DNA of 64,000 bases. Source: Fusarium oxysporum f. sp. lycopersici 4287 (taxonomy: Eukaryota; Ascomycota; Sordariomycetes; Hypocreales; Nectriaceae). The position numbers were made by a program, and so were the translations under genes. This document shows positions 3,469 to 60,851 of this stretch, piece by piece. The notes below the pieces were generated by a model. That model searched no databases, was not told the DNA's origin, and was given only the letters and a program-made list of their open reading frames with translations. Each line of letters opens with the position of its first letter. Position 1 is the stretch's first letter. The stretch is taken from the NCBI RefSeq assembly GCF_000149955.1, contig NC_030995.1, positions 2,373,453 to 2,437,452 of the forward strand. The letters run 5' to 3'.

Positions 3469-4603
3469 ATGGCTTCTAAAGAGCGCTCTTTTGGCTCAGA
3501 AATAAGCGGAAATCGCCAATTCAATCATGAATTTACTCCGGTCCAAAGAGCTGCAATAATGGCGGAGTTACGGGCCGGCAAATCTCAACGTATAGTTGCG
3601 GCTAACTTCAACACCACGCAAGGTACAATATCAAAGACCAAAAAACGCTGGGAAGAAGAGGAAATACTGCAATCTAGGGCACGAAAATGGCGTCCTAAGA
3701 AACTTACGGCGCTGCAGATTGTAAGAATCAATTCATTTATTAATCGGCATCGTAAGATCACTTGGAATGACGTTCTTGAGCTTGGTTTAGATGTCTCAAT
3801 CCGTACCTTAAAACGACGTCTACAGAGCCATTGGCGCCGTAAATGGCGGTCAAAAGACGGATTAAACTGTCAGAAGAAGATGCAAAAGCCAGGCTTAAAT
3901 ACTGTGAGTTTTGGCTCCGTCATCTTGACGATTACATACAGGTAAGTCAGTTGAAAGTGAAGCTATCACCACTGACTTTGCCGTACAGATTTGCTTCAGT
4001 GACGAAGTTACTGTACAGAATGCACCGAACAATCCCGACGGCTGGGTCTTTCGCCGACCTGATGAGAGATATAGGAAGGACCTAGTTAACATTCAGTCAC
4101 ACGGAAAGGCTTGTCAGTCGGTCATGTTCTGGGGAGCCATTGCTGGAACTAATAGGTCATATATTATCCCTATGATAAGGGATCCGGCGGCCAAAAAAGG
4201 AGGTTATTCCAGCTGGTCATATAGGAAAGCTCTTACAGAAGGTCTCCTCCCTTTCCTCGATAAATTTGAGCTATTTCAGCAAGACAACGCCCGTGTGCAC
4301 ATCGCCAAAGCTACAATAGATTGGTTGCTTTTACACGGCATTATTCCAATTAATTGGCCGGCACATTCCCCTGATTTAAACCCAATTGAACATATCTGGA
4401 AGGCTTTAAAAGCTAAATTACGAAGGATTCATCCAGAATATATCAAATTAGGCAAAAGCGAGGCTCACAGGAAATTGCTGATTAAATGGATCCAAGAAGC
4501 GTGGGAGGCCTTGCCGGACTACCTGATTTTGAAGCTCACGAAGTCTGCCGAAAACAGGCTTCGCGCTTGCATGCGCGCGCGTGGTTGGTATACAAAATAT
4601 TGA
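3469..4603 (+). pseudogene. Tc1-type transposase, frameshifted
   Basis: The first part (ATG 3469) has a helix-turn-helix DNA-binding region (residues about 20-60, RAAIMAELRAGKSQ). Coding then moves to another frame near 3843-3848, where a single missing base best explains the jump, and continues through LSEEDAKARLKYCEFWL. A 47-nt intron (3942-3988, gtaagt..acag) leads to CFSDEVTVQNAP, giving the first catalytic Asp. QQDNARVH gives the second, and SPDLNPIEHIW gives the Glu, with exactly 34 residues between the last two. It ends at 4603. Apart from the one-base lesion the protein is complete, so the damage looks young. Sequencing error at this base cannot be excluded. Confidence 0.8.
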
Positions 4604-23837: not shown

Positions 23838-24760
23838 GGACCCCTAGGGAGTGTCAGCGACATTGGTCTACAAGACACAGCCCTTTACCCGAATAATTAC
23901 TTACGATTCGATCTTGAAGCATTGGATACCTACCTTCAGTGGTCCGAGGATCAGTTCCGTTGTCGTCCATAGTTCTCATGTTTTTTATCCTAAGTCATGA
24001 TATGTTAACGCCCATTCTAAACTCTCCATGATAGTGCGTGATTTCTCGAATGATGAGCTGCTAGACAAGATGAACAGCGACTAACTTGGTGAATCGCTAC
24101 TTCATGAACCAGCCACTTGGGATCTCTCCATTGGCTGTATGACGTTCTTGGTGACTGCAAAACCCTGGCATTGACTCACATGCAAATTAACGTGTTCACT
24201 CATACAAACTTTCGGTTCATTGAAGCCGGTCAGAATGAACAATCACAAACTCCAGATAAGATCCAAGAAAACAGAATATTTCCCCAGACCCCAGAAACCG
24301 CACACGTTGTCTGCCTGTCAACCCAGTGGGTCCGTTATCTTCGGGCAACCTTATCTATGCCCAGACCAAACTAGCCCCCTGTAGCGTTACATAGTGAACA
24401 TCACCATTGATAGAGACATGCTATCGAGCATGATTGGCTTCATTCCTTATCAGACTCTCCAATCGGACGGTTAAACCCCGCCTTTTATCAAGGTGCTATA
24501 TCCGGTGCGACTCAGGGACCGCGCCACTGGAACTGGAACGTGAGTAATCGTCGGGAGAAAAGTACCCGATAGAGTACTGATAGACATTGCGACTCTAAGG
24601 CAGCTAAGGTCTGGAGAATAGATTGGAGATTATGATGTAAGGTTGGCTATTAGATATCAAGCAAGAAGATCCCAATTTTGCGCATGCCGATTATTGAGAC
24701 ATTGTTCAAGAGCTTGAGAGACTGAGGCATAACGAACAAAGAAACGAAGGTATCTCAACC
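23838..24760. promoter_or_regulatory. bidirectional promoter, regulator / NCS1 permease, with GATA sites
   Basis: 923 bp without a gene. GATA-type sites: GATAAG at 24255, TTATCT at 24335, CTTATC at 24350 and 24446. This is consistent with nitrogen control of the permease at 24761. Confidence 0.48.
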
Positions 24761-26778
24761 ATGGTAAACATCCCATCTAGGAGCGAGCTCACGGCTCCCT
24801 TTCGATCGAAGGAAGCTTTTGTCAACTTTGTCAAGACATCTGAAACGGCAGATGGTCAGACTCGAGTCGGTAATGAGCGATGGTCTAATAAAGATCTTGA
24901 ACCTACGCCACCAGAGCATCGTAACTGGACATGGTAAGTCAATTGTTCACCGGCGAGAGTATTTGTGGTTGTACTGATTGATGAAGGTACAATTTGCCGC
25001 TGTACTGGTTCTCCAACCAGTTTAGTCTAACGGGATGGAACACTGGCTCATCGCTCATTGCTGTTGGTTTGGTAAGTTTTACTCGTCTATTGACGCCCCG
25101 ATCCGCGGAAAACTGACTTGAAGGCAATAGACCTGGCAGCAATCATTCGTCTCGTGTGTTCTAGGTGCATTGCTCGCATCTCTAGTTGTCATCTGCATGG
25201 CCAGGCCCGGTGTCCAGTACCATATTGGTTTGTAAGTGACCGACAATCCTACAGCTTCTACACATATACTAATCCAACACCTAGTCCTGTGCTCGCTCGA
25301 TCCAGCATGGGAATGTACGGCGCATACTTCTTCATCTTCATCCGAGCCATCGTCTGCATCGTTTGGTACGGGTAAGTATCTCACCCTCGTTGACGTCTCT
25401 CCCACCGTCAATGTTAACAGTTGTACAGTATCCAGACCTTCTACGGCGGATCGATCCTTTCAGTAATGCTCCGCTGCATCTTTGGCAGCTCATGGCAAAA
25501 CTTCACCAATACCCTTAGCGAAAGCGCCGATATCTCATCAAAGGTCCTTCTGGCTTTCTTCCTCGTTTGGCTCATGCAGTTCCCATTCGTACGTATCCCC
25601 ACAACCCCTTCACTAATAAACACTGCTAATGTTTGCAGATGTGGGTTCATCCAAGAAACATCCACTACGTCTTCACAGTGAAAGGCTTCACCATGCCCAT
25701 CGCCGCATTCGCCATCTTCGGATGGTGCATGGCCAACGGTGGTGGCTTGAACGGCATGAACATGGCGTCCAAAGAAGCTGAGGCAGCTGCTTCCACGACT
25801 CCTCTTGGCTGGAGTATCATGTCTGGCATCAACGTCATCATGGGTGGATTATCGCCCATGTTGGTTAATCAGCCTGATCTAGCGAGATATTGCCAAAAGA
25901 CTCGTGATGCAGGTCCTCTCCAGGGCGTTAGCGTCTTTGTGTCATCTGTCATTGTCTTTTTCCTTGGTCTTGCGTCGACGGCATCTATGCAGACTGTTTA
26001 TGGGGAGGCGTACTGGAATATTTGGGATTTGCTTGACTCTATTCTTGACCATCATTGGAATGCGGGCGCTCGTGCGGGAGTCTTCTTCCTGGCGCTGGCT
26101 TTCCTGTTGGGTGTCTTTGCGACCAACTTTGGCGCAAACTCGATTCCTTTTGGGTCTGATATGACTGGTCTCTTCCCACGATGGCTCACCATCCGAAGAG
26201 GGCAGATTGTCTGTGCTATTCTGGGAATTTGCGTTGTTCCTTGGAAGCTTATGGCGAATGCTCAAGCTTTCTTGTCGTTCCTGGGTAGTTACAACATCTT
26301 TATGGCGCCTCTGTGCGCTGTCATTATTGTTGACTACGTCTACGTCCGGAAAGGCAACATCCACGTCCCATCATGCTACGACGGAAGCAAGCATGGTCTC
26401 TACCACTTCTGGTCTGGCGTCAACTGGGTTGGCTGTCTTGCCTGGATCGGAGGAACTACCATGGGCCTGCCCGGTCTCGTTGGACAGTACCAGCCTCATC
26501 TTCTTTCCGATGCTTCACGCTATATGTACATGATGGGTTGGCTTCTGACGTTCGTTACTGCCGGAGTTGTATATACTATTGGTGTTCAGTTTGTCAACAT
26601 TCGTGTCTTCCCTGCTGGTCGTGCAACGGCCAAGTCTTGGGAGTGGCTGGCTAAGGATGGCAGAGAAGGTTTCTATGAAGACGAGAGAGAGGGACAAGTC
26701 ATCTATGCTCAGGCATCACCTTCTGCGGATAAGACTGAGGGCGAGGTGAATGCAAAGGCAGATGATTCGTCGCTTTAA
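24761..26778 (+). CDS. NCS1 nucleobase:cation symporter (FUR/allantoin-uracil type)
   Basis: Six exons (24761-24933, 24987-25071, 25131-25231, 25285-25371, 25429-25588, 25639-26778), 581 aa, all in frame. The N-terminus ends RNWTWYNLPLYWFSNQF, and the first helices carry LTGWNTGSSLIAVGLTW and GVQYHIGFPVLARSSMGMYG, the fungal Fur-family pattern (PF02133). Later NGGGLNGM, LVNQPDLARYC and FGANSIPFGSDMTGLFP are typical NCS1 helices. These plasma-membrane symporters import uracil, allantoin, uric acid, thiamine or similar heterocycles. The adjacent PuuE-like hydrolase and amidase suggest that the imported compound is opened and hydrolysed for nitrogen. GATA sites lie in the shared promoter. Confidence 0.92.
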
Positions 26779-26947
26779 GCAATGGAATTGACATAGATTG
26801 TAAATGCCGTATATAGCCACATGGCTTCGTTGTCCTTCCCCGATAGCTAGTAATAATATTGATCCTTGCACTCTTTCCAGCAGCTTGTCCCCAATGCTGA
26901 GCTGACCTGGTGAATCATCTAACTAAGGGAAAGTATCTAAGACTTGT

Positions 26948-27168
26948 CTTATCTTCCGGACCAGACTCTGTGTCCGCCACGAAGACTTATCATGGATCTT
27001 CCCTTGACCGAAGCCTCAAATTGTTTCATTGAAAGTGCAGTTCCCGCCTCCAAAAGCGCTAGGAAGTGTTTCCGTCCTGCCAAGCTTATCTCCGTCAGCC
27101 AAATTCGTTCGCCGGACCCACCTCTCCGCATCGGATGCAAATATACCGACCGATGATAAGCTGATAAG
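26948..27168 (+). promoter_or_regulatory. GATA-site cluster upstream of the amidase
   Basis: Five core sites in 221 bp: CTTATC at 26948, 26986 and 27085 and two adjacent GATAAG at 27155 and 27163, ending about 175 nt before the ATG at 27343. This is the densest GATA cluster I found in the window. The rest of 26779-27342 contains no gene. Confidence 0.55.
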
Positions 27169-27342
27169 ATCAGTAAGCCCATCGGAGGCCGGTCCCGGGA
27201 ATAATTACCCGTCAGGTCTTTGAGGCATTATGTCATCCTCCATAAGAACACAAGCCTCGACGATCTAGTGAATAGGAGAGATCGTTATATGCAAGCCTCT
27301 GACCCATCTTCTAGCCTATAGAACTGTTCAAGGATTGTCACT

Positions 27343-28790
27343 ATGCTGGTACAGCCCTACCAACTCTCGGCAACTGATGTCGCTGCCAAGATCCGAGATG
27401 GCCAGCTCTCAGTTGAGGAGTATGCACAGTCACTCCTGGCACGTATCAAAGAGCGAGATCCAGTTGTGAAAGCGTGGGCTTATATCAATCCTGATCAAGT
27501 ACTTCAAGAAGCTCGGAAACTAGATGCTGTCCCCAAGGAAGACCGAGGACCTTTGCATGGTGTTGCGATTGCGGTCAAGGATGTCATCTACACGAAGGGT
27601 AAGTCAACTAAAGGAGACGAGGCAGAAAATTAATTGGTTAACGGCGAGAACTCAGATATGCCAACGCAGTTTAACTCACCCATCTACAAAGATGATGCTC
27701 CCCAAGTCGACGCAGCTAGCATCATCATCCTCCGCAAAGCAGGTGCGCTCATACTAGGCAAGACGACCACCACCGAATTCGCAGCCACTACCCAAGGACC
27801 TCAAACAACAAACCCTCACGATAGTTCTCGTACACCTGGAGGTTCATCATCAGGATCTGGGGCAGTTGTAGCAGACTTCCAAGTTCCCCTCAGTCTTGGA
27901 ACACAGACCGGAGGAAGCACCATCCGCCCAGCCTCTTTCAACGGTATCTATGGATTCAAACCAACATGGAACTCAATCTCAAGGGAAGGGCAGAAAGTAT
28001 TCTCGCTTATTCTTGATACATTGGGCATTTACGCTCGGACCGTGGAGGATCTGAACTTACTCGCTGATGTATTTGCCTTGCAAGACGACGAGCCACCTAA
28101 CCAAGAATACTCTATCAAAAAAGGGAAATTCGCCATCTGCAAAACAATGGTTTGGCCCCAAGCTGGCCCCGGTCTAGTCAAAGCAACGGATAAGGCCGTT
28201 GAACTCCTCCGATCAAGCGGTGCTACGGTAGAAGAGATTGAGTTTCCCGAACATCTGCAAGATCTACCAAAATGGCACTCCATCGTCTTCAACACTGATG
28301 GACGAACAGCCTTTCTACCAGAGTATAGGGTTGACAAGACCCAGATTGCAGATCAGCTGGTTGGACACGTTGAGAACCGCCTCAAGATCTCTAAAGCTGC
28401 GCAGGTTAAAGCTTTTGATGACATTGCAGCGGCAAGACCTGTCGTTGATGACATGTTGGCGGATTATGATGCTGTGTTGGTTCCGAGTGTGCCGGATGAG
28501 GCGCCCAAGGGCATTGAGGCTACTGGAAGTGCTGCATTCAATCTGATATGGACGGTAAGTGACCAGTACCCATGGAGATCGCTGAGAAGTGAGAATCACA
28601 ACTAACTTGGCTCTTCTAGGCGCTGCATACTCCTGTCATCAACATTCCGGGGTTCGCTGGTGAGAACGGGATGCCGATTGGCTTGTCCCTCGTTGCACCT
28701 AGGTATCACGACAGAAAGCTTCTGGTAGTGAGTGAAGCTGTAGGAAGGCTCTTCGAGACATCAGGAGGATGGAAATCACAGATAGTCTAG
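27343..28790 (+). CDS. amidase signature family hydrolase
   Basis: Three exons (27343-27598, 27656-28554, 28620-28790), 441 aa. The Ser-cisSer-Lys triad is visible: Lys79 in GVAIAVKDVIY, the cis-Ser in TPGGSSSGSGAVVAD (about 150) and the nucleophile Ser173 in SLGTQTGGSTIRPASF. The family (PF01425) cleaves C-N bonds of amides, carbamoyl compounds or ureido acids. The substrate cannot be read. Its place next to the NCS1 permease and its GATA-rich promoter suggest it acts on the ring-opened product of the PuuE-like enzyme. Convergent with the PrpF-like gene, with only 86 bp between. Confidence 0.9.
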
Positions 28791-28876: not shown

Positions 28877-30115
28877 TTACAAGTAGTAACAAACCCGTCC
28901 CTCGAAAAGCCTTCTCGCCGTTCGCGAAACAGCACAGCTCTCAATCCCATCCTCCCCATTCTTCTTAACAAGAACAGGAATGGTACCCTTACTATGCTCG
29001 ATAACAATCTGTCTCGTATTGGCGGTATCATTCCTCTCTCCCTGCATATCAGGCGATGGTGTACGCTCAGGCGTTGGGGGTCCGTCGGTAATAGGTGTAG
29101 CTGATAGGTCTGCGGCGATAGTACCCTGAATGCTAACTGCTGATCCTAGGCAGACTGCGCCAGTGAGTTGGAGTGTTGGGTGGGGAAGACCCATGGAGTA
29201 GGACTGCACGTAAATATCGGGAGTCTTGTTGTTGGCGCGGTGTGTTGGTGATGAGAGGAGTGCGATCTTGGGTGTACCGCGGGTTAGGCCAGCAACTTTT
29301 GTGCTTGTTGCTAAACCCATGTCTACAGCGCCTTGGCATCGGATTGCTTCAACGAGAGCGTGTTGTGTCTCTGGTGCAGCATTAGCGCCAAGGATGGTCG
29401 TGAAGTCTGTTGCGCTGATCATGACGAAGGGGTTGGCAGCGTCGACCAAAGTAGCGCGGATCTGAAAAGGTGCCATCTCTGGTAATAATGAAGAAGGGTC
29501 GACGTGAAGCCACTGCTGCTTCTGACCAGAAGGGAACAAGCTTCCCGCCATGCTACCGGCGGGATCAACGAAAGAGCACTTGACTTCACTGCCAGGTGAT
29601 TTAACACCAGGAATGATAAAGTCGCCATCCTCCTTGAAGTCACCATTACGATCCAACTCAACAGTCTCGACGATGATTCTGCTCGTGTTGGTGTTGAAGA
29701 TCCTAACATCAATCTCCGTCTGTCCCGGCTTGGGCGTGACAAGTCTCTCCTGAACAGCGAAAGGTCCAACACCCGAACTCATATTTCCACAGTTTCCTGA
29801 GAAATCCACCGACTCCTTCCCAACAGCGACTTGGACAAAAGTAAAGTCGACGTCGGCATCTTCACGGTTCGACAGTGAAATCACAGCAACCTTTGACGTA
29901 GTAGATGAACCACCGCCGACGCCGTCGACCTGTTTAGCATCGTTGTTTCGCGAGCCCAATGCTGAGATGAGATGTGGACCCCATTCCGATTCCTTCTCGG
30001 GGAGGTCTTTCCGGTGGATGAAGAGGCCCTTTGAGGTTCCGGCGCGCATTAGCACGCAGGACAGGGCGTGGCGGGTAGGATAGTGCTCCTGGGGAGTCTC
30101 GATCTCGATAGCCAT
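28877..30115 (-). CDS. PrpF-family isomerase (aconitate/methylaconitate isomerase-like)
   Basis: Single exon, 412 aa. PrpF (PF04303) features: ALSCVLMRAGTSKGLFI at the start of domain 1, QVDGVGGGSSTTSKVAVI, and SGNCGNMSSGVGPFAV, where the Cys in NCGN is the family's catalytic position. Domain 2 has EIDVRIFNTNTSRIIVE and VDAANPFVMI. The family isomerises or tautomerises double bonds of unsaturated tricarboxylates and dicarboxylates: methylaconitate (PrpF), oxalomesaconate, and cis- to trans-aconitate for Ustilago Adi1. No targeting peptide is seen, so it is probably cytosolic. It sits next to a regulator and a mitochondrial tricarboxylate carrier, which favours an aconitate-type substrate. Confidence 0.88.
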   Translation of the reverse strand: MAIEIETPQEHYPTRHALSCVLMRAGTSKGLFIHRKDLPEKESEWGPHLISALGSRNNDAKQVDGVGGGSSTTSKVAVISLSNREDADVDFTFVQVAVGKESVDFSGNCGNMSSGVGPFAVQERLVTPKPGQTEIDVRIFNTNTSRIIVETVELDRNGDFKEDGDFIIPGVKSPGSEVKCSFVDPAGSMAGSLFPSGQKQQWLHVDPSSLLPEMAPFQIRATLVDAANPFVMISATDFTTILGANAAPETQHALVEAIRCQGAVDMGLATSTKVAGLTRGTPKIALLSSPTHRANNKTPDIYVQSYSMGLPHPTLQLTGAVCLGSAVSIQGTIAADLSATPITDGPPTPERTPSPDMQGERNDTANTRQIVIEHSKGTIPVLVKKNGEDGIESCAVSRTARRLFEGRVCYYL

Positions 30116-30399
30116 TGTGATTGTGAATTGATTGTGAATTACGTACTCAAGACTCGGAGGGTAACGAAATGGAAAGAGTTAAATAACTCGTGGTTTCGCC
30201 ATGGAATTGCCATTTTGTTCGTAATGTAATTGAGCTCGGCATTGGCGATGCAGGGGAATAACACTCCGAGTGATTCTAGCAGGGAAGAAAAACTGGAGAT
30301 GCCGTGGGAGACAAGCTCTTGGCTTCCCGTCTGCCCCATAGAATATGTCCCGTCTCAAAGTAAGTGTCCCGCGGGAACGGGAAAAATAGTGGCGAATTT

Positions 30400-33080
30400 T
30401 CATCTCCCAATGTACTGAAACTCACCCGTACTCGACCCATTAAACCCGAAAATCGGATCCTCCAAAAACGCAGCATCCTGATTCGCCGGCCAGAAACTCG
30501 TCTGTTGCCATGAATTCCCACCCTCAATGTCCCCAGCCCCGGCCACGGGAGTAGCGAAACTGTTCAGTCCTCCCGCGGGAAACCCTTGGGGGAAGTAAAC
30601 TGGCTGTTGACCTGTCGATGTGTGGAGATAGTGCTCCCCGTCGACTTGAGGTATTTTCTGGGGGTATGAAGCGGCTTGGCCGTACATGGTTGGCTCGTTG
30701 CTGTTGAAGTCGCCCTCGCGGAGGAAGCTCTGTATGATGCCATCGATGTTGATCCAGTCTGAACCAGGTGACGGCACCGCGCTACCGCTGAGTTCGACTG
30801 GTTGCATTTCCTGATTCGGCGATGATTCCGTCTGTGCGTTCCCCGTATTCTCCAACCCTTCGTACCCAATTTGCGCTTGTACTCGCTGTTGCTGCTGCTG
30901 AGGCTGTTGATCACGCGACTTGGTAGCCGGTTCAGCCTCAAGCGCGTCATCGGGCAAATCATCAACGACAACGCCGTACTTGCTCATGAGTCTGTGAATA
31001 ATAACCGCTGCTTTTTGAACTGCAGAATTGGTCTCTTGGTTTTCTTTGAACACGGCGAGACATGTCATTAGGTTAACGTAGGCTGCTGAGCCTTTGCCGT
31101 TTTTGGCGGCGATGCGACAGTGGATTGTAGCGGCGACGTAAGTTGCGTAGGAGATTAGGTAGGGGGCGCGACGGACGGAGAATGCGCGGTGGTAGGCGCG
31201 TAGAAGACTGCAGATGCTGGAGGCGGCTGCTGAGCATTTTATGACGGAGTCGACGGATATGGAGCGGAATGTGTTGTAGAGATGACCGTCGGCGACGAAG
31301 GGGCGGTGGAGGAGAATGACGAGGACGTGATACATAGCGCTGAGATATTAGCGTTAAACGAAACACAATTGTCAAGGAGACTCACTGGAGACTGAGAACG
31401 TGAGGCGGAGGAACAGTGGCATCAGGTGCGTTCGCAACCTCAGGCTTGAGATGATCCGGTAAAGCCGTATGCCAATCCTTCAACTTCTTCTGAAGCTTAT
31501 CCAACACTTTCGACAGCTCAGCAGGGCTTTGGTCTGTTGTCCGAACGGTGTATATGGTGCTCATGACATCGCTCATGACGATAGACAACTTGCAGAGTGC
31601 AGTGAAGGTCGAGATACTGTATGCTGGCGAACCAACGTAGTCGTTCTTTGACGTCGAGTACGCAAAAGGCTGCCAGAATTCGAGCTCAGAATATGTATCG
31701 ATGAACTTTATCGGAACCATGGCGTCGTTTTCTTTGAGGGTGACGGGACGGCCTTGATACAGACTCTGAATCTTATCGACCACTGTCCATGTTAGTATTT
31801 GTTGATACTCCTGCTGGAGGTACATACCAAAAGCTCCCCAGAACACACGACGTCGTATCTCAAGATCCTCATCAGAGAATTGATGCGAATTCGTCAAGTC
31901 AACATGCAACCCCAAATCAATAAGCATACGAAACGCCAACCCAGCATACAACCACGCCGCACTCCTCTCATCACCCAGCGCAAACAACGAATTCGTCATG
32001 ACAAGCAACGCCTGAATCGTCGTAATATCGCTCCTGTCCAACGACCCTCCCACCAACTCCCTAACCCTCTCACGATACCGCCATCCCGCAGTCCTGACAT
32101 CGTTAACGTCCTTTCGAACCTCAAGTCTCGGACTAAACTTTGATGAACCAAAGTATATAGCGTTGAGTAGCAGTTTCGAAAAGTATGGTCCGCCGCATGC
32201 CATGTCCCGCATGAACGCGGGACGGTACGTGATGAGGAATGAGTGGTGTTGACGGTTCCAGTGTAGGGAGAGGAGATGCATCCCCAGGTCCGGATCAACG
32301 CCGTCAAAGTCAAGCTGCCCCTTAGCGAAATGGATCTCCTCCAGTTGCCCTATCTCACACACACAATGTTAGTTACGCCGCTTAACAAACTACAAGTATA
32401 AGTAAAAGATGGTACCCACGCTGCTTAGCTGCCTCAGCGATAAGACCACGCTCTACCCAATGATCCGGCATCCGCGGCTGCACCTCCTGCTCAACAGGTC
32501 TTTCCTGCGCATTATCCTCAAACAGGGCACTCGTGCGCCCATGATACGTTGATTCACCGTTCGCTAGGACAACGACTCTCGCGACGCCTGAATCCATGGG
32601 CCGCGGTGAAGGATCCCACGATTGATGGCGAGGTGCTGCTCCATCTCGTGTTACTGCTTGCTGACTACTGCGCTCACTCGCTGCTTCACTGTCGCCAATT
32701 GACGAGGCTGCCTCATTGGCGGGGGCGCTGGCCTGACGAGCAGGTGATTCAGTGCGCGCCTTGACACTACGGGCCTTTGTGCGCTGATGGCGCTGCCGGC
32801 CAGCTGCTTTGGTGACATCGGGGACGGGCTCGTAAACGCAGTCTTTCTCGTATGTCTGGCAGTTGATACACTTTGGCTTCTGACCGTTACACTTGATCTA
32901 GGGTTGTACCGTAATTAGTCCCGCGGGAACTCGTTACCTGCTTCGGGGACGCCTGGGCTCTGGGGTATGGGAGGGGAAACTGGGGTATTGGGGTAGTAGT
33001 CTCACTTTTCTTTTGCGGCAGAATGTGCATGCTTCTGTGGCACGCCTGCGGACGCGGGTAGGCGTGGGCTCTACGGGCAT
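30400..33080 (-). CDS. Zn2Cys6 fungal transcription factor (nit-4-like layout)
   Basis: Multi-exon. Exon 1 (ATG 33080) encodes RRRATEACTFCRKRK. After an intron the zinc cluster finishes with IKCNGQKPKCINC, giving Cys18, 21, 28, 35, 38 and 45. The long middle has the fungal_trans domain (HLLSLHWNRQHHSFLIT, DLEIRRRVFWGAFG, VILLHRPFV). A Gln tract (QQPQQQQQ) and a Gly/Asn/Gln-rich C-terminus look like an activation domain, ending QYIGR at 30400. Layout and cluster sequence resemble NIT4/NirA-type regulators. Divergent from the mitochondrial carrier across 372 bp and upstream of the PrpF-like gene on the same strand, so it probably controls both. An ATG-less upstream extension of the frame was not used. 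Confidence 0.86.
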
Positions 33081-33452
33081 TGTTTCCTCTGTGCTTTTGC
33101 GTGGGAAGAAAAAGGGAAGATTGTGAGGGACGGGAAGAGACGGGAAGAAAGCTGAGCTGATCAATTCCACTCGGATCCACTGTTGATCCGCGGGTCGTAG
33201 TCCTCAAGGGGCAAAGCGTTGAATTTTCTCCGTTTTCTTCCCTTCACTTCAGTTATGTTTACCCGTGAGCCTCATCCCGTGGCTGCAAGTTTTGGCAGGC
33301 CTACTATTATTAAACTGCGACTATCCTTTAAATGTTAGTAGATGCTGTTTTTTACTTGCTAGTTTATTATTTATTTATTTCTCCCCGTTTGTCATCATTT
33401 GCCAAGTCTTGACCGTTTCTCTTCACCTTGCATTCACCGAATTACCCCAAAA
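33081..33452. promoter_or_regulatory. bidirectional promoter, regulator / mitochondrial carrier
   Basis: 372 bp between the divergent starts. No gene; T-rich stretch near 33340-33380 on the carrier side. Confidence 0.4.
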
Positions 33453-34547
33453 ATGGACGCCATCGCTACAACACAACCTATTGCTAAGCCCGCACTACCT
33501 AAGCAGGCCGTAGCGCAAACAACGCCTGCACAGAAGAAGAAGATTACTCCTGGTATTTCTCTGGCTGCTGGTGCTGTTGCCGGTGGTGTTGAGGCCACAA
33601 TCACAGTGAGTGTTCTGTGCTATAGGTTGAAAAGCACCAAATGTTAACAGGCTTAGTACCCCTTTGAGTGGGCAAAGACAGTAGCGCAGCTCAGCGCCCG
33701 CCAAGCACCCGCTGGAGCAGTCGTCTCCAAATCCCCATTTGCCGTCATCGGCCAAACAGTTCGTTCAGATGGTATCCGCGCAATTTACACTGGATGCTCC
33801 TCATTAATCGCTGTGAGTATCCTTTTTCCCAATCAATTGACAATTTGGTCTAATAATATCAGGGAACTGCTGCCAAGGCTGGTGTTCGCTTCCTCTCTTT
33901 TGATGCTGTAAAGGCTCAATTAGCAGATGCCAATGGAAAGCACTCTGCGGGATCAAACATTCTCGCTGGTATGATTGCTGGTGCTGTTGAGAGTGTGACT
34001 GTCGTTACGCCTACGGAACGAATCAAGACTGCTCTGTAAGTTACTCGTCAGGATTGCGCGGCGAAGTTGTATACTAACATGAAATAGCATTGATGATGCT
34101 CGCTCAGGGAACAAACGTCTCAACGGCGGATTCCACGCCCTGCGCACAATCGCAGTTGAGCGCGGCGTCCGTGAAATCTACCGCGGTCTCATGTCCACCA
34201 CCCTCAAGCAATCAGCCACATCCGGAGTCCGAATGGGTTCCTACAACATCCTAAAAGACACCTTTAAGTCCGACGGAAAGAACCCCTTCATGACATTCGG
34301 TATCGGCGCTATTGCCGGTGTCATCACAGTCTATGCTACACAACCGTTTGATACCATCAAGACAAGATCGCAGTCTGCAAAGGGTATTGGTATGGGCGAG
34401 GCTGTTCAGCAAGTTCTCCGTGATGGAGGCGTGAGAGCGTTCTGGAGTGGAAGTACTATGCGATTGGGACGGTTGATTCTTAGTGGTGGTATTGTTTTCA
34501 CGGCGTATGAGAATATTGCAGGCTTGTTGATGGGGATGAAGAAGTAG
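33453..34547 (+). CDS. mitochondrial tricarboxylate (citrate) carrier
   Basis: Four exons (33453-33605, 33657-33812, 33863-34035, 34088-34547), 313 aa. Three mitochondrial-carrier repeats, each with the PxExxK or PxDxxK signature: PFEWAK (after AGGVEATIT), PTERIK (after GMIAGAVESVTVVT) and PFDTIK (after YATQ). The repeats and the motifs SGVRMGSYNILKD and GAVESVTVVTPTERIK resemble the citrate transport protein CTP1/SLC25A1 branch, which exchanges citrate, isocitrate, cis-aconitate and malate across the inner membrane. Beside a PrpF isomerase it would deliver cis-aconitate or citrate to the cytosol, as Mtt1/MttA do in itaconate producers. A second copy outside this window for housekeeping use would be expected. 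Confidence 0.9.
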
Positions 34548-35554
34548 AGTGCATATTGGGAGTATTTTGTGTTTTGGATCTCATTTACAGGAAGTTTGGG
34601 TCGGAGTATTAGCTTATGGCATTAAAACGATTTCATGTATTATTCATAGACGAATTTCCAATATTCTATATCCATTTCATACAATAATTTCTGTACATGT
34701 TCTGTGAATGTGACTCTTGACTTGGAGATGTTGACAAGGCCACAAACTGAATCAAACTGAGACGACTTCACTCTGCAATCTTTCTCAGTATCTTATCGTA
34801 TAACCGTAATCTATGCTTATCAGATCCATCGTACAAGCTTAAACATAACCGTAAACTCATGCCGATTTCACCGAGGCATTTCTGGGTCCTCAACGGCGAT
34901 CGTCACAAACATGTCATGTCAGACCGTGTCTACCCCAGACCTACAGCCAAGATCCATCCTACCCTCGGACTTCCCCGCATTACATTCGCCTACCGAAAAC
35001 TTGGTCCGTTGGAAACTGGAGTCACTTGACTGCAACGTCCAGGGTTCAGAGCCGGAGAGCAGCATCGGCCTTCCCCAACTTCAGCCCAAACCCGAGCATC
35101 CTCCGCTATCCTTAACCGATAATTCTCTCCTCCATTCCCCCGTGGGGGAGGAGAGAGTCATCGGGAAGGCCTTGGCAAATCAATTCCCGCGGGAACAAAC
35201 GACATACTCTGTTGTCCCCCGCAAAGCAGATTCGAGACCGCACGTTACTGGGGTTCTCCACGTCTTGCCAAGACTAAGTTAAGGTTATGCGTAACCTTAA
35301 TGGGGATAACGCTACTAGGAGCGATGAATTTTCCAGTTCCGCACTGCGGCTGACTCGCCATTCAGCCAGATCCAGATTGCTACAACGAGCAAACAACATG
35401 ACGAGAATCCTGCCAAGCTGTGTATAAAAGTCTTGGTAGATCCTACCCCAGATTTCTCTTCTTGCCCAGACTCATCATCACTTCTTAGTTCTCCAGTCCA
35501 GTTCCACATCAGCTACCCACCCAAGTCTTGGAACCCCAAGAGAGTTCGCCCAGC
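34548..35554. other. intergenic, promoter of the ACS permease
   Basis: An ATG-started frame of 123 codons at 34911-35282 has no motif and a random look, so it is not called. A TATA box TATAAAAG lies at 35423-35430, about 125 nt before the ATG at 35555. Confidence 0.45.
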
Positions 35555-37183
35555 ATGACTGTTTCGCAGAATAACGAGACCGCCTCTCACAATGAGGACC
35601 GCTTCGATGAGAAGGCAGAGGTCGCGGCCGTTGAGAATGCCATCTCTTCGCCTGTCGGACACATTCCTCCCATTGAGATCCAAGCTCGCTTTCCGCTCCT
35701 GCGCGATCTCTCGCAGACGCAGATGGATGCACTGAACAAGAAGGTTCGCAGCAAGGTTGATTGGCATATGATGCCTTGTGTCACCCTCATGTTCTTGATG
35801 AAGTAAGTCAAACAATACCAAGCGACTACCAAGATAGCCAAGACTAACAATGAGCTTAGCTACCTCGATCGCATCAACGTCTCCAACGCTCGACTCGCCG
35901 GTCTGCAGGAAGATCTTGGCATGACTGATACCGTTTGGAACGCGGGTATCTCGACTTTCTACGTCGGTTACCTCATTGGTCAATTGCCCGGTAATCTCCT
36001 CATGGCCAAGACGAACCCCAAGCTCTTCCTGCCTACCATCATGCTCATGTGGAGTGCGGGTACAATCTGCATGCCCGCTATGACCAATGGTGTTGGATTC
36101 TGTGTCGTTCGCTTCTTCATTGGTTTGATGGAAGCTCCTTTCTTCCCTGGTCTGACGCTCATGACTTCATCTTGGTACACCAAAGAGGAATCGCCTTTCC
36201 GCATGGCTATCTGGCACGCTGGTAACACCATCTCCAACATCATCTCTGGTTTCTTGGCTGCTGGTATTCTTGAGCACATGGACGGTATTGCTGGTATGCA
36301 CGCTTGGCAATGGTTCTTCCTCATTGAGGGTATTGTCTCCATCATCGTTGCTGTCATCTCTTTCTTCGTTCTCCCCTCTTGGCCCAATGACACCAAGTTC
36401 CTCGATGAGCAGGAGCGCGAGATGGCCCAGTACCGAATCCTGGTTTCCAACGGTGGTATTGATGAGAAGGTTGGTGGTACTTGGGACGGTGTTCGTGATG
36501 CCGTCAAGGATCCCTTCACCTGGTACTTCTGCCTCATGCACTTTGCCCTCGTCACTGCCCAGAGCTTCAAGGATTTCCTGCCTTCTGTAAGTACACCCTA
36601 GCCACTACTTCTGCAACTTGACTAACATCTTCAGATCATGAACACCTTTGGCTTCAACAAGATGACCACCTACCTCATCCAGGCCCCTCCCTACGCCCTC
36701 GCTTACATCTCCGCCTGTATCATCGCCTGGTCCTGTGGTCACTTCATGGAATCAACTTACCACGTCGTCATCCCCATCATCCTATCTGCAGCTGGTTGCG
36801 GTATCCTCATCGGCACCATCAACGTCGCAGCTCGATACGTCGGTATCATCCTCCTCGTCTGCGGTACCTACAACGGTCTCAACTTGCAGCTCTCCTGGGA
36901 AACCACTGTCGTCCCCGCTCCTCGCGCCAAGAAGGCCGCTCTTATCGCCATCGCCAACTGTATCAGCCAGGTCAGCCATTGGTTCAGCCCTTATTTCTAC
37001 CCTCGAAGCCAGGAGCCTTTCTACCGCATGGCTGGTGGTCTTCTCCTTCTCGGCTGTGCTTTGACTGTTCTCTCGGCCTTCCTTGTTCGATGGAGGGCTC
37101 AGAAGCTTAACAAGAAGCTTGATGAGCAGGAGGGATGGACTCCTAACTCTGGTGTTGAGCGTGGCTGGCGATACAAGTACTAA
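35555..37183 (+). CDS. MFS permease, anion:cation symporter (Dal5/Tna1-type)
   Basis: Three exons (35555-35802, 35860-36586, 36635-37183), 507 aa. After a polar tail, KVDWHMMPCVTLMFLMNYLDRINVSNARLAG is the ACS-family first helix and LDR motif, split by intron 1. Later GLMEAPFFPGLTLMTSSWY and WHAGNTISNIISGFLAAG match allantoate/nicotinate/carboxylate permeases. About 12 helices. Plasma membrane; family substrates are allantoate, nicotinate, pantothenate, tartrate and other organic anions, with H+ or Na+. In this position it could export or import the tricarboxylate product, or an anionic nitrogen source linked to the 20-29 kb genes. Confidence 0.9.
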
Positions 37184-56367: not shown

Positions 56368-59300
56368 TCAGGGCACAGAGTCATCGTGGACTTCAGTACT
56401 CCAAATAATACGACCTGCTTCCTCGATCGGACATGCACTGACTCGAATTGCTTCTAGAAAGTGGCCATGGCTGACGGCGTTCAATGGTTTAGTGAGTCCG
56501 TCTGCTACCTGCTCATGTGTGCTGACGTATTGTACATCAATATTCCCGGCTTCAACTTCTTCTCGGATATGGTGCTCGGTTAACGGAATGTGCTTTGTCC
56601 GTTGGTGAAGCTCAGGGTTTCTGCATAGCTTTAGGGAACCCTGATTATCGCCGTTCAGTGGGATAGGCATATGTAGCGGAAGGAACAGTTCAGAGAAGAG
56701 GTTCCTAGTCCAGGCTAATTCTCTGGCACACTGGGAGAGTGCTGTATATTCAGCCTCGGTAGTCGATAGTGCCACTGTTTCGTGCCGTTTGGCCCTCCAT
56801 GAGACTGTAGATCCTTCAAGTTGAACAAGCCATCCAAACGTCGATCTTCCCGTAACAGTGTCGCCTTTCCAATCCGAGTCGGCCCAAGCTGTGATGCTCC
56901 AAGCGGATTCAGGATCTTTCTTGACGCCCCCAAGCACCAGGCCGTGGTCCCTTGTCTGCTGTAGATAGCGAAGACCTCTTTTGATCAATCGTGAATGTGC
57001 TGGTGATGGATTCGACATGTATCTTGAGAGTACCGAGAGTAGGAAAGCTAAATCGGGTCTGGTTTGGGTCATTCCATACATCAGCGAGCCGGTTTTCGAG
57101 CTATAGTCTTCTCGTTCTTCTGGAGAAGCCGAGTCGCCATTGTCTCTTGGTTGCAGTGTCGAGAGTGAATTTCGCTCCATCGGGGTCTTGACCGGTCGGC
57201 AATCTTCCAAGCCGAATTTCTTCAGTATTCTGGTAAAATATGCATCCTGGGAAAGGTAGATCAGCCTTGAGTTCCTGTCTCGGGTTATTCTTACTCCAAG
57301 AAAATGGCTGGCGGGACCGAGATCAGTCATCGTAAAGATCTCTCCCAGGCGGGCTTTGTACCCTTGGATTGCTTCCTTGTTGCTGCCCATGATGAGGAAG
57401 TCATCCACATATGTGATGATAATCACTCCCGTTGTGGGATTGTGATATACGGCCGTGTCAGACGTTGCTTGTCTGAAGTCAAGGGATTCTAAGGTCTTCT
57501 TCAGCTTCTTTTGCCATTGCCGAGGCGCCTGTTTGAGTCCGTAGAGGGATTTGATCAATTTGCAGATCTTCTCAGTTGAGAATCCTGCCGGACGGTCTTC
57601 TGGGTGTTGATCGAAATACTCGACAAGTCCTTCCGGCATTTCGATAAAGACTTGTTCATCGAGATCCCCTTCCAGGAACGCCGTCGACACGTCCATCTGC
57701 TCAATTTCCCAGTCAAGACAGGCAGCAACGGTGAGGAGGATTCTCCAAGTCGCCGCTTTGGCAACAGAGGCAAAAGTCTGGTTGTAGTCAAAGCCGAACT
57801 GTTGTTCAAAGCCTCTGACCACCAGCCGTGCCTTGAACTTGTCGAGGTTGCCGTCCTCGTTTTTCTTGACCTTGAATACCCACTTGACTGTAAGTGGCCT
57901 ATTGTGAGCTTGGGTGCGGTCCAGCATGCGCCAAGCTCCTTTCTTGAGGAGGCTGCGCAGCTCACTGTGTATTGCTCTGAGCCAATGCTCCCTTTGCGGA
58001 CCTTGAAGCGCTTCAGTCATTGTTTTGGGCTCAGTGATCACCTCTTTTCGGAGATCGGGCAGCTTAGCTGATGTCATGGATGTTGTCGTCTGTCCATGCT
58101 GAGGATTATGCACCTCAGCATGCTGAAGATTGTTCACTTCAGACCTTTGTGGGCTTGGAGTCTTTGTCTGCTCCGTGACGGACTGTGGCCGGCTTGAGAT
58201 GGGAGCTCCGTTCTTGCGGATTTCCGGCTCAACATCATGCTCAGTTTCGGTCAGGAGTTCTGTCTCCCCAACCTTTTCGTAGAATTGTACATTTGCAGAG
58301 CGGACGATCTGATGTCCCTTCCTGCGAGAGGGCACCCAGCAGGTGTAGATCTGTGAACCTTCCATGCATAGGTAGATTCCAGCCTCTCCTCTTGGGCCAA
58401 ACTTGTGTGATCTCAATCTTCGTTCCTGCGGTATGTGTATCGTGACTTGTGAGCCGCAGATTCGTTCTCCGGACAGATCCGGCTTGTTGTCTTGTCCGGG
58501 AAAGGCCTCGTTGAGAAAGCTTTCCATGGGAGTGAGGCCATCAATTGCCCTGGTGGCTGTCACGTTTGTCTTGCGCACCATATCTTCCAGGACCAATGGC
58601 CAGAGCTCTATCGGGATTCTTTCCGACTCCATGGTTGCTCTGACTTTGTCAAAGATGATGCGGTTAGAGCGCTCAGCAACTCCGTTAAATTCAGGAGTAT
58701 ATGGTATCGTCTTGATGATCTTGACGCCGTGAGTGTACTCGAGGTTCTTGAGAGACGCACCATAGAGCTCAGAGCCGCCATCCATCTGGATTGCGTACAC
58801 TCGGATGCCATACTGAGTTCGTATCTTGGAGATGAGCTGGCCTAGGAGTTCCGAAGCCATCCCCTTCCTCGTGAATGTGTAGGCCCATCTCATTCGATGC
58901 CTGTCATCTGTGGCAATCATTCCCCATCGTTCGCCTCTAATGCCCGGTGGATTGACTTTGAAGGTGTCAACATGAATGAACCCGGCCCTGGAGGCTCGTT
59001 TCCGTTTATTTCGCGGAGTCCATCGTAGGGCCTTTGCGATGTCGCAGGCGAGGCAGTAATTGAAAGGCTGATGGTCGTGGTGGCCGTCACAGTACATTCC
59101 TTTGGTCATTTTGGCAGTCTGTGACACCTGATATGCGTTAACATGGCCGAGTCTTCGGTGCCAAAGGTCGACATTCAGGCATTGATTTGATGAAGCAGTG
59201 TGGTGATTGCATGGTTCTGGCTGGAGTTCCCAGGCGGCCTGGTTTGAAACAGTAGTCTTTCCGACCTCAGTGTTCACGTACAGACCGTCCCTTCCTATGC

Positions 59301-60783
59301 GGAGGAGACCAAAGACATCTCCTGTTGGGTCATACATGTCGTTCCCGTCTATCCAGCCGCCGTTCTTGTATAGCCTGAGTCCTGACATGACATTTACCGG
59401 AAACTCAGGGATGAACAGCGTGTCTTTGAGGTTAATTGTGACCTGCTCACCCCATTTGTTTATGAAGCAAATTTTGACTGTCCCCCTACCGAATGGGTAC
59501 ACCTTCCCACCGCCCGTAACGAGGACCGTTCGGGTTGCAGGCTGCAGTTCTGTGAATAGGCTTTGGTCGTTGCAGATGTGGACTGACGAACCTGTGTCGA
59601 ACAGCCATTCTGCGGTTGAAGAGATGTTATCAAGGGAGACCTTACACGTCTCTGTATTGTCCATAGGTAGCTCGTCTGAGACGCTGTCTTCAAGGATCAG
59701 AAAAGATCGCTCGACTGTCATATGATTTGATTCCTTGATATGGAGATTCTTGGTGTTGTCCCGTTGAAGATCATGCTCCATGAGTTCCTTGGCGAGGCGG
59801 ACTGCCCAGTCAGGTCGCTTATCCTTATGGGCAAACCAACAATCATTTTCGTGATGTCCTCTCTTCTTGCAGTTCGTGCAGGTATGGTCCTTATGCTTGC
59901 CGACCCGATGATTGGTTTCCTGGCTGGATTTGTTCGTGGCTCGTAGGTTCTTTGAAGAGCCTCTCCTCCGGCCGCTTGCCTCTTGCTTTCTTGCGGTCAG
60001 GCCCTTCCTTCCGGTCTTTTTACTGTGAGCCCAGTACGTTGAGGCAGTGCCATGACTATCATCATCATCTGATGACCTGTTTTCATCAATGAGATCTTGC
60101 TGCATTGATCGTAGTGTTGGCGGATGCTCCGAGCGTAGGAGAGCGCGCTGTCTGGCAGTCCAGTCGGGGTACTCGTTCTCGCAGGCAGTCAGATAAACAA
60201 CCTTTTTGAGGGTATCTGAGATTGGTTCTTTCTGCTCGAGGAGAAGTTTGACGAGTCGTTCAAAGTCGACATTAAATTGTGGAATTGTCTCGTAAGAGCT
60301 TGTTTTGATCCGGATGAACTGGTAAAGTGTTGTCTGCAGAAGAACTGGGCCCGTGCCAATACAATAGGCCTGGAGAAGGTTGAACATCTCCTGGGGATTC
60401 TCAATCCCGACTAGTTGACTAAGTGCTTCTCCAGTGCAGTTACCTCGGATGGAGACGGCAGCTTTTGCCGCCCTGATCTTTTGATCCATAGTCTGCTGTT
60501 CCTCGGGAGGGTAATCACCAAAGACAGCATCTTCGAGACCATTGATTCGAAGAATGGCCTTCTGAGCTGGGCAATATTGCTCCCAATTGGAGGGTCCGCC
60601 TAGCTTGAGCTCTTGCGGAAGGAAAAGAGTATTCTTTTCAGAGATGACCGTGGTACTGTCATACATTGAGGATGGTGTGTGGTCTTGACCTGAAGCACCA
60701 GGTCGCGACGATTCGGATGCAGGCGATACTCTGATTGTGTTGCGGGTTCGCATGGTGGAACGTGGGGCTCGTCGTGACGTCAT
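56368..60783 (-). CDS. copia gag-pol polyprotein
   Basis: One uninterrupted frame of 1471 aa from ATG 60783. Order of domains: gag (about 60-230), CCHC zinc knuckle CTNCKKRGHHENDC (302-315), aspartic protease LFDTGSSVH (about 395), GAG-pre-integrase/HHCC zinc region starting WHRRLGHVN, integrase core with Asp in HVDTF, Asp in QMDGGSE and Glu in NGVAERSNR, reverse transcriptase with QMDVSTAFLEGDL and the active-site YVDDFLIMG, and RNase H with WADSDWKGD and ALSTTEAEYTALS. Protease before integrase before RT is the Ty1/copia order. All catalytic residues I looked for are present. Gag and Pol share one frame without a shift. Confidence 0.96.
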   Translation of the reverse strand: MTSRRAPRSTMRTRNTIRVSPASESSRPGASGQDHTPSSMYDSTTVISEKNTLFLPQELKLGGPSNWEQYCPAQKAILRINGLEDAVFGDYPPEEQQTMDQKIRAAKAAVSIRGNCTGEALSQLVGIENPQEMFNLLQAYCIGTGPVLLQTTLYQFIRIKTSSYETIPQFNVDFERLVKLLLEQKEPISDTLKKVVYLTACENEYPDWTARQRALLRSEHPPTLRSMQQDLIDENRSSDDDDSHGTASTYWAHSKKTGRKGLTARKQEASGRRRGSSKNLRATNKSSQETNHRVGKHKDHTCTNCKKRGHHENDCWFAHKDKRPDWAVRLAKELMEHDLQRDNTKNLHIKESNHMTVERSFLILEDSVSDELPMDNTETCKVSLDNISSTAEWLFDTGSSVHICNDQSLFTELQPATRTVLVTGGGKVYPFGRGTVKICFINKWGEQVTINLKDTLFIPEFPVNVMSGLRLYKNGGWIDGNDMYDPTGDVFGLLRIGRDGLYVNTEVGKTTVSNQAAWELQPEPCNHHTASSNQCLNVDLWHRRLGHVNAYQVSQTAKMTKGMYCDGHHDHQPFNYCLACDIAKALRWTPRNKRKRASRAGFIHVDTFKVNPPGIRGERWGMIATDDRHRMRWAYTFTRKGMASELLGQLISKIRTQYGIRVYAIQMDGGSELYGASLKNLEYTHGVKIIKTIPYTPEFNGVAERSNRIIFDKVRATMESERIPIELWPLVLEDMVRKTNVTATRAIDGLTPMESFLNEAFPGQDNKPDLSGERICGSQVTIHIPQERRLRSHKFGPRGEAGIYLCMEGSQIYTCWVPSRRKGHQIVRSANVQFYEKVGETELLTETEHDVEPEIRKNGAPISSRPQSVTEQTKTPSPQRSEVNNLQHAEVHNPQHGQTTTSMTSAKLPDLRKEVITEPKTMTEALQGPQREHWLRAIHSELRSLLKKGAWRMLDRTQAHNRPLTVKWVFKVKKNEDGNLDKFKARLVVRGFEQQFGFDYNQTFASVAKAATWRILLTVAACLDWEIEQMDVSTAFLEGDLDEQVFIEMPEGLVEYFDQHPEDRPAGFSTEKICKLIKSLYGLKQAPRQWQKKLKKTLESLDFRQATSDTAVYHNPTTGVIIITYVDDFLIMGSNKEAIQGYKARLGEIFTMTDLGPASHFLGVRITRDRNSRLIYLSQDAYFTRILKKFGLEDCRPVKTPMERNSLSTLQPRDNGDSASPEEREDYSSKTGSLMYGMTQTRPDLAFLLSVLSRYMSNPSPAHSRLIKRGLRYLQQTRDHGLVLGGVKKDPESAWSITAWADSDWKGDTVTGRSTFGWLVQLEGSTVSWRAKRHETVALSTTEAEYTALSQCARELAWTRNLFSELFLPLHMPIPLNGDNQGSLKLCRNPELHQRTKHIPLTEHHIREEVEAGNIDVQYVSTHEQVADGLTKPLNAVSHGHFLEAIRVSACPIEEAGRIIWSTEVHDDSVP

Positions 60784-60836
60784 CTTGAGTTGAAGTTTGG
60801 TTCTTTGATTCAGAAGAGAAACCCGGTGTTTGCTAA

Positions 60837-60851
60837 CCCGGGCTCATAACC
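60837..60851 (-). promoter_or_regulatory. primer-binding site, complementary to the initiator tRNA-Met anticodon arm
   Basis: Directly after the 5' LTR the element strand reads GGTTATGAGCCCGGG. The complement CCCGGGCTCATAACC contains the CAT anticodon in the setting of the initiator tRNA-Met anticodon stem-loop, not the tRNA 3' end. Drosophila copia and yeast Ty5 prime from such a half-tRNA, so the same mechanism is inferred here. Confidence 0.75.

Follow-up and report, generated by a model that had tools for sequence, protein, structure and literature searches.

What acid is handled, and in which direction, by four adjacent genes encoding a PrpF-family isomerase, a Zn2Cys6 regulator, a mitochondrial carrier and a major facilitator superfamily (MFS) permease in Fusarium oxysporum f. 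sp. lycopersici 4287? The genes occupy positions 28877–37183 of a 64-kb stretch of contig NC_030995.1 (2,373,453 to 2,437,452), hereafter the window, which was analysed against the 61.2 Mb genome of 71 contigs; contigs are designated by C and a number, and the window lies on C10. A preliminary description of this DNA had placed the four genes at these coordinates, and all of them are present, with PrpF, Mito_carr, MFS_1 and Zn_clus/Fungal_trans domains found by Pfam. It had also predicted a pathway that moves cis-aconitate out of mitochondria, isomerises it and exports or uses trans-aconitate or a related acid. The tricarboxylate theme of this prediction is retained here, but import and use of the acid appear more likely than export. 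The four genes may well serve the breakdown of an unsaturated tricarboxylic acid from outside the cell. The most likely candidate is trans-aconitate, which would be imported, isomerised to cis-aconitate and delivered to the mitochondria.

Four neighbouring genes behave as a unit

The cluster comprises the following genes. The spliced structures of the regulator, carrier and permease, including their exon borders, are predicted models.

28877..30115, minus strand: PrpF-family isomerase, single exon without intron, 412 amino acids, PF04303
33080-30400, minus strand: Zn2Cys6/Fungal_trans regulator, five-exon model (33006-33080, 32420-32897, 31828-32349, 31386-31782, 30400-31339), 803 amino acids, PF00172 and PF04082 above cut-off
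33453-34547, plus strand: mitochondrial carrier of the tricarboxylate (CTP) group, four-exon model (33453-33605, 33657-33812, 33863-34035, 34088-34547), 313 amino acids, PF00153 in three stretches
35555-37183, plus strand: MFS permease nearest the D-galactonate transporter group, three-exon model (35555-35802, 35860-36586, 36635-37183), 507 amino acids, MFS_1

In protein searches the permease model was 100% identical to FOQG_07543 of F. oxysporum f. sp. raphani, and the PrpF protein shared 98% identity with a protein of F. napiforme.

We searched for relatives of the PrpF, carrier and MFS proteins and listed the best 120 matches for each. Contig sharing was counted over the rows with a named organism (77 of 120 PrpF, 77 of 120 carrier and 84 of 120 MFS rows, a set that leaves out nearly all MFS rows after P0332). 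Contigs of equal size were treated as one, and one such pair, from Rhynchosporium, bears two species names. Among the matches listed, 35 of the 77 named PrpF rows have a carrier or MFS match on their own contig (23 with a carrier, 20 with an MFS permease and 8 with both); on contigs above 1 Mb such sharing denotes linkage rather than adjacency. The contig-sharing fungi include Sordariomycetes, Eurotiomycetes, Dothideomycetes and Leotiomycetes. All three genes carry close locus tags in Helicocarpus griseus (PrpF AJ79_07424, carrier AJ79_07422, MFS AJ79_07421), Verticillium albo-atrum (ACHAQA_000747, 000748 and 000749, in the same order) and Pyricularia grisea (MCOR25_007938, 007936 and 007935). 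Near-adjacent PrpF and carrier tags occur in Fusarium sarcochroum (FSARC_101, 103), Pyricularia pennisetigena (PpBr36_04211, 04213), Monosporascus (DL771_003389, 003387) and Paraphaeosphaeria minitans (PMIN02_006727, 006730), and Fusarium lateritium has two sets of near-adjacent tags. Judged by tag numbers alone, seven of nine PrpF-carrier pairs leave space for exactly one intervening gene, which is the place of the regulator in the window.

The cluster is also marked by a 10-bp palindrome, TCCCGCGGGA. The genome holds 41 copies of it, compared with 25 of the reversed control pattern. Four copies lie in the window, all of them at 30367–35194, and they are listed here (unstranded) with one weaker core.

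30367..30376: palindrome TCCCGCGGGA, 252 bp upstream of the PrpF start
30571..30580: palindrome TCCCGCGGGA, 456 bp upstream of the PrpF start and in the last regulator exon
32919..32928: palindrome TCCCGCGGGA, in regulator intron 1, 161 bp inside the regulator start and 534 bp upstream of the carrier start
35185..35194: palindrome TCCCGCGGGA, 370 bp upstream of the MFS start
33187..33194: weaker core TCCGCGGG, in the stretch from which the regulator and carrier genes diverge

When 41 sites were placed at random, four of them fell within the observed span of 4828 bp in 0 of 20000 draws, and the closest other TCCCGCGGGA pair in the genome is 16,714 bp apart. The core CCGCGG consists of two facing CGG triplets, as expected for Zn2Cys6 sites, and YCCGCGGR has six matches in the window against 2.56 expected, a count reached in 3 of 100 shuffles. 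We infer that the Zn2Cys6 regulator encoded in the cluster binds TCCCGCGGGA. The alternative Zn2Cys6 pattern CGGN6CCG was not enriched (12 matches against 8.82 expected; 17 of 100 shuffles reach 12).

Elsewhere in the genome, most single copies of TCCCGCGGGA may be background, given the 25 copies of the reversed control. Its use as a marker of a larger regulon was set aside: longest open frames, judged by eye without a domain scan, included no obvious tricarboxylate genes near the 18 of 37 other sites that carry TCCCGCGGGAA; the site at C8:172296, described below, was examined as well.

Because the PrpF, carrier and MFS genes co-locate in other fungi and the TCCCGCGGGA copies cluster here, two independent lines point to the four genes being one unit. 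A chance adjoining of genes that share no pathway is scarcely credible: the carrier and MFS families are both large, but the genes lie together repeatedly in several groups of fungi and the palindrome cluster is unique, which contradicts it.

The isomerase retains the catalytic pair and falls in a fungal clade

The PrpF protein matched PF04303 with 288.1 bits (cut-off 27), and its residues K75 and C109 align with K73 and C107 of Shewanella PrpF. Replacement of the latter two residues is reported to have abolished growth on propionate in a complementation test (PMC5690661). Every one of the 38 fungal rows keeps the catalytic lysine and cysteine, as do 32 of the 33 bacterial ones (one gap), and this pair together with the Pfam domain places the protein in the PrpF superfamily. 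Its predicted structure had a mean pLDDT of 81.4, with Mii, PrpF and LigU as the closest folds. Residues 343–363 (window 29027–29089) form a low-confidence insert beside a TPERTPSP-like motif. The pattern TPxx(x)TP occurs in 26 of 38 fungal rows and 0 bacterial rows, and the insert with its motif is possibly a phosphorylation or docking site.

We assembled 77 rows for a phylogeny (33 of 80 bacterial loci, 37 of 120 fungal matches, a paralogue on C9, the window protein and five PDB segments); L061 was dropped, and the tree of 76 rows was obtained by a quick search without bootstrap. In this tree the fungal isomerases form one clade (SH-aLRT 100), separate from LigU with YbhH, from Mii, from Shewanella PrpF and from the C9 paralogue. 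The nearest join of this clade is to the Shewanella PrpF group (support 82), which is flagged as a meeting of long branches; C9, LigU and L054 are long rows, and therefore the deep joins are unsure. Grouping with enzymes of aromatic degradation, which the preliminary description had named as evidence against an aconitate role, was not what we found, as the fungal-only clade stands apart from LigU. The C9 paralogue (C9:1598476-1599702, minus strand) is a second PrpF-family gene of this genome; the row most similar to it in the tree set, from Methylobacterium, shares 43% identity, and by eye its product starts with an apparent mitochondrial leader.

These data bear on the possibility that the cluster serves catabolism of a related acid, namely 2-methylaconitate, methylitaconate or 4-oxalomesaconate (OMA) from gallate, with the other enzymes encoded elsewhere. 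The PrpF family uses all three acids, and the OMA tautomerase model NF033377 gave the best NCBIfam match; its 254.9 bits are nonetheless far below the curated 440, and the 2-methylaconitate isomerase PrpF model TIGR02334 was missed as widely (205.7 bits against 440.55). One report states that cis- and trans-aconitate were proposed in earlier work as gallate products in Aspergillus niger (PMC10512348). Against such a role, the tree sets the fungal isomerase apart from LigU, Mii and PrpF, and the hydratase, aldolase, lyase and ring-cleavage enzyme are absent among the four cluster genes. We consider this alternative rather unlikely, though it deserves to be kept in mind.

Database names for the PrpF relatives are ‘methylitaconate isomerase’ or ‘YraM’. 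Bacterial neighbourhoods were collected for 80 PrpF-family loci, with frames mapped at 10 of them and 20 neighbouring frames from 8 loci scanned. The neighbours included TctA/TctC, a GntR regulator and a PEP-mutase-type lyase (L013), CitMHS plus LysR (L021 and L040), B12-binding, MutL and PEP-mutase genes (L046) and aconitase (L081); being mixed, they therefore pick out no single substrate. A Verticillium dahliae ‘methylitaconate isomerase’, VDAG_01341, is listed among genes that respond to cotton root exudates, with values between 0.9 and 2.2 FPKM. This expression is too low, and the orthology too uncertain, for it to serve as support.

A second tricarboxylate-type carrier and a permease of the D-galactonate group

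The closest other genomic copy of the carrier, at C4:3404338-3404991, is a Ctp1-like sequence with 47% identity over 194 residues, and all remaining matches in the genome have 40% identity or less. The preliminary description had named a carrier that is the only CTP1 orthologue of the genome as evidence against its prediction; with this paralogue present, the window carrier is not the sole CTP-type carrier, and it is predicted to be a second, cluster-linked carrier of the tricarboxylate type. By eye, both proteins share arginines in putative helices 4 and 6, and in the reading of the C4 paralogue the helix 2 stretch KAGxR can be recognised. The helix 4 arginine lies in SGVRMGSYN in the window carrier, SAVRMGSYN in its relatives and SATRFTAYN in the C4 paralogue.

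For the permease, the best NCBIfam match was the D-galactonate transporter subfamily TIGR00893 (200.6 bits, under the cut-off of 395). The best match to a solved structure was likewise for D-galactonate transport (E 2e-9); sialin and other structures matched less well. Members of the D-galactonate transporter group move carboxylic acids along with cations. Since the permease is nearest to this symporter group, import is favoured. One paralogue, at C8:176804-178272, shares 59% identity in the best exon and 48–54% in the others; the hydroxyacid-dehydrogenase-like and HpcH/HpaI-aldolase-like genes near it (by eye) again suggest a catabolic setting.

The opposite direction, in which the carrier would move cis-aconitate out of mitochondria, the isomerase make trans-aconitate and the permease secrete it, has the enzyme and carrier families of the U. 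maydis pathway on its side. The equilibrium of Adi1 is reported as 88% trans (PMC4720413), and Bacillus thuringiensis produces trans-aconitate by a PrpF-family isomerase and an exporter. Biosynthesis with export is disfavoured by the affinity of the permease to the D-galactonate symporter group, whereas Itp1 is described as EmrD-like. It is also disfavoured by the aldolase-like and hydroxyacid-dehydrogenase-like genes (by eye) beside the C8 paralogue, as in acid breakdown, and by the broad conservation of the set, which would suit nutrient use more than a special product. Taken together, we regard it as improbable.

The C8 region has a further feature. A single TCCCGCGGGA at C8:172296 lies ∼140 bp upstream of the likely start of the hydroxyacid-dehydrogenase-like gene, which is divergent from the HpcH/HpaI-aldolase-like gene; a regulator-like gene and the MFS paralogue lie beyond (C8:172159-178272; all by eye). 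This region is perhaps a sister acid-use cluster.

A proposed route for trans-aconitate

To use trans-aconitate, a cell with mitochondria would require a permease, an isomerase and a tricarboxylate carrier of the mitochondrial type. Among the known PrpF-family reactions, only the conversion of trans- to cis-aconitate could lead on without additional dedicated enzymes, since its product is taken by mitochondrial aconitase. Set beside the gene identities, the conserved neighbourhood of the PrpF, carrier and MFS genes, the site cluster and the intact catalytic pair, this leads us to infer a substrate, a direction, a mode of site recognition and a compartment. The MFS permease would take up the acid with protons. 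The acid or its product would activate the Zn2Cys6 regulator, which would bind the TCCCGCGGGA sites beside its own gene and the other three. In the cytosol, the PrpF-type enzyme would shift the double bond, via Lys75 and Cys109, to give cis-aconitate from trans-aconitate. The dedicated carrier would then deliver cis-aconitate to the mitochondria, where aconitase would feed it into the citric acid cycle. Such a pathway would also clear an aconitase-inhibiting acid.

Several observations weigh against this assignment. Mii, PrpF and LigU come out nearly level in the fold search, and PrpF-family enzymes use several acids. The permease falls short of the curated TIGR00893 cut-off, and its direction of transport cannot be read from sequence. 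Two of the four cluster palindromes fall in the regulator gene body, which weakens a pure promoter function. Among the matches listed, 42 of 77 named PrpF rows have no contig partner, and PrpF relatives are present also in insect-associated fungi, for example, Beauveria and Cordyceps.

An itaconate pathway using an unlinked Tad1-like decarboxylase is very improbable. The preliminary description had noted that the cluster is without Tad1 and without the CadA type of decarboxylase, and genome searches agree with it: TIGR02426 gave nine matches and PF03972 (PrpD family) five, none of them on C10. Two CMLE/Tad1-like genes of the bacterial pcaB family do occur on other contigs, at C7:410695-411690 (348.6 bits against a cut-off of 355.75) and at C13:66591-67430 with 66290-66550. 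The C13 gene offers the most for this alternative, as an MFS gene lies ∼2 kb away and an AMP-binding-enzyme-like gene is near (by eye). The neighbours of the C7 gene, however, resemble genes for thiolase, CoA transferase and homogentisate dioxygenase, a setting that recalls aromatic breakdown (by eye), and no TCCCGCGGGA comes closer than 600 kb to either of the two.

trans-Aconitate is stored by grasses, among other plants. If the assignment to trans-aconitate catabolism is correct, it would explain the use of this acid by many moulds, including plant-associated ones, which would both eat and disarm it. It would also give a function to a widespread gene family, together with a candidate inducible regulator and its site, and a dedicated mitochondrial aconitate carrier could possibly aid aconitate or itaconate production. 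One study indicates that trans-aconitate may contribute to antifungal defence in wheat (PMC8871043).

Genes surrounding the cluster

On the left, the PrpF gene is adjoined by genes for an NCS1-type purine/allantoin permease (PF02133) and then an amidase (PF01425), at about 24760–28790 on the plus strand, which look like a separate nitrogen-use pair. On the right, a fungal rhodopsin-domain gene (PF20684; 37424–38840, minus strand) adjoins the MFS gene. All three were provisionally set aside as cluster members; exact TCCCGCGGGA is absent there, and a weaker core, TCCGCGGA, lies at 25102 within the NCS1 permease gene. Farther out, by eye, a 1491-codon open frame (56368–60843, minus strand) resembles a copia-type retrotransposon polyprotein, and an open frame at 3929–4603 (plus strand) resembles a Tc1/mariner-type transposase fragment.

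Comparison with known systems

At the level of the enzyme, the fungal isomerase shares its fold and the Lys/Cys pair with the PrpF, Mii and LigU isomerases, but differs from them in its separate clade and in its scores, which lie under the curated PrpF and OMA-tautomerase cut-offs.

The Aspergillus terreus itaconate cluster (mttA, cadA, mfsA) has the same plan of a Zn2Cys6 regulator, a mitochondrial carrier and an MFS protein (PMC6447509). It has the PrpD-family decarboxylase CadA in place of a PrpF-type isomerase; MttA and MfsA enter this comparison by their descriptions. The same review reports that the best relatives of MttA are low-scoring and scattered across other fungal classes (PMC6447509), and therefore a common origin of the carriers is possible. 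In the parts of the open-licence literature consulted, we found no description of such an ascomycete cluster or of a fungal trans-aconitate assimilation system. The preliminary description likewise named no described ascomycete cluster of this composition. The cluster is not peculiar to this ascomycete: by locus tags and shared contigs, relatives of its isomerase, carrier and MFS genes lie together in many Pezizomycotina. We tentatively propose that it could be the first system for trans-aconitate assimilation in a eukaryote, an old Pezizomycotina unit of four genes with a self-regulating Zn2Cys6 activator, from whose carrier and regulator plan the Aspergillus itaconate cluster was maybe assembled.

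The Ustilago cluster (ria1, mtt1, adi1, tad1, itp1), to which the preliminary description had likened these genes, agrees in outline: a PrpF-family enzyme, Adi1, of the same Pfam family as the fungal isomerase described here, a mitochondrial tricarboxylate carrier, an MFS permease and a regulator. The match does not extend to the class of regulator or, probably, to the type of permease. Ria1 is described as a bHLH protein and Itp1 as EmrD-like (PMC4720413), whereas the Fusarium cluster encodes a Zn2Cys6 regulator and a D-galactonate-transporter-like permease, the latter set apart through the description of Itp1. These differences make the parallel a loose one, and the Ustilago cluster contains Tad1, which the Fusarium cluster lacks.

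The closest working analogue would appear to be the bacterial TarR-TarA-TarB system. In Bacillus velezensis, the PrpF-superfamily aconitate isomerase TarA and the MFS importer TarB, controlled by the positive regulator TarR, are required for growth on trans-aconitate (PMC11495376). Both systems encode a PrpF-superfamily isomerase, an MFS permease and a regulator together, with TarA and TarB compared by their descriptions; an MFS gene linked to the isomerase gene, as in a Tar-type system, lies here at 35555–37183. The regulator is of the LysR type there and Zn2Cys6 here, and the fungal cluster adds a mitochondrial carrier. By this analogy, the Fusarium cluster would lie outside the Ustilago type and would work like a Tar system supplemented with a mitochondrial carrier.

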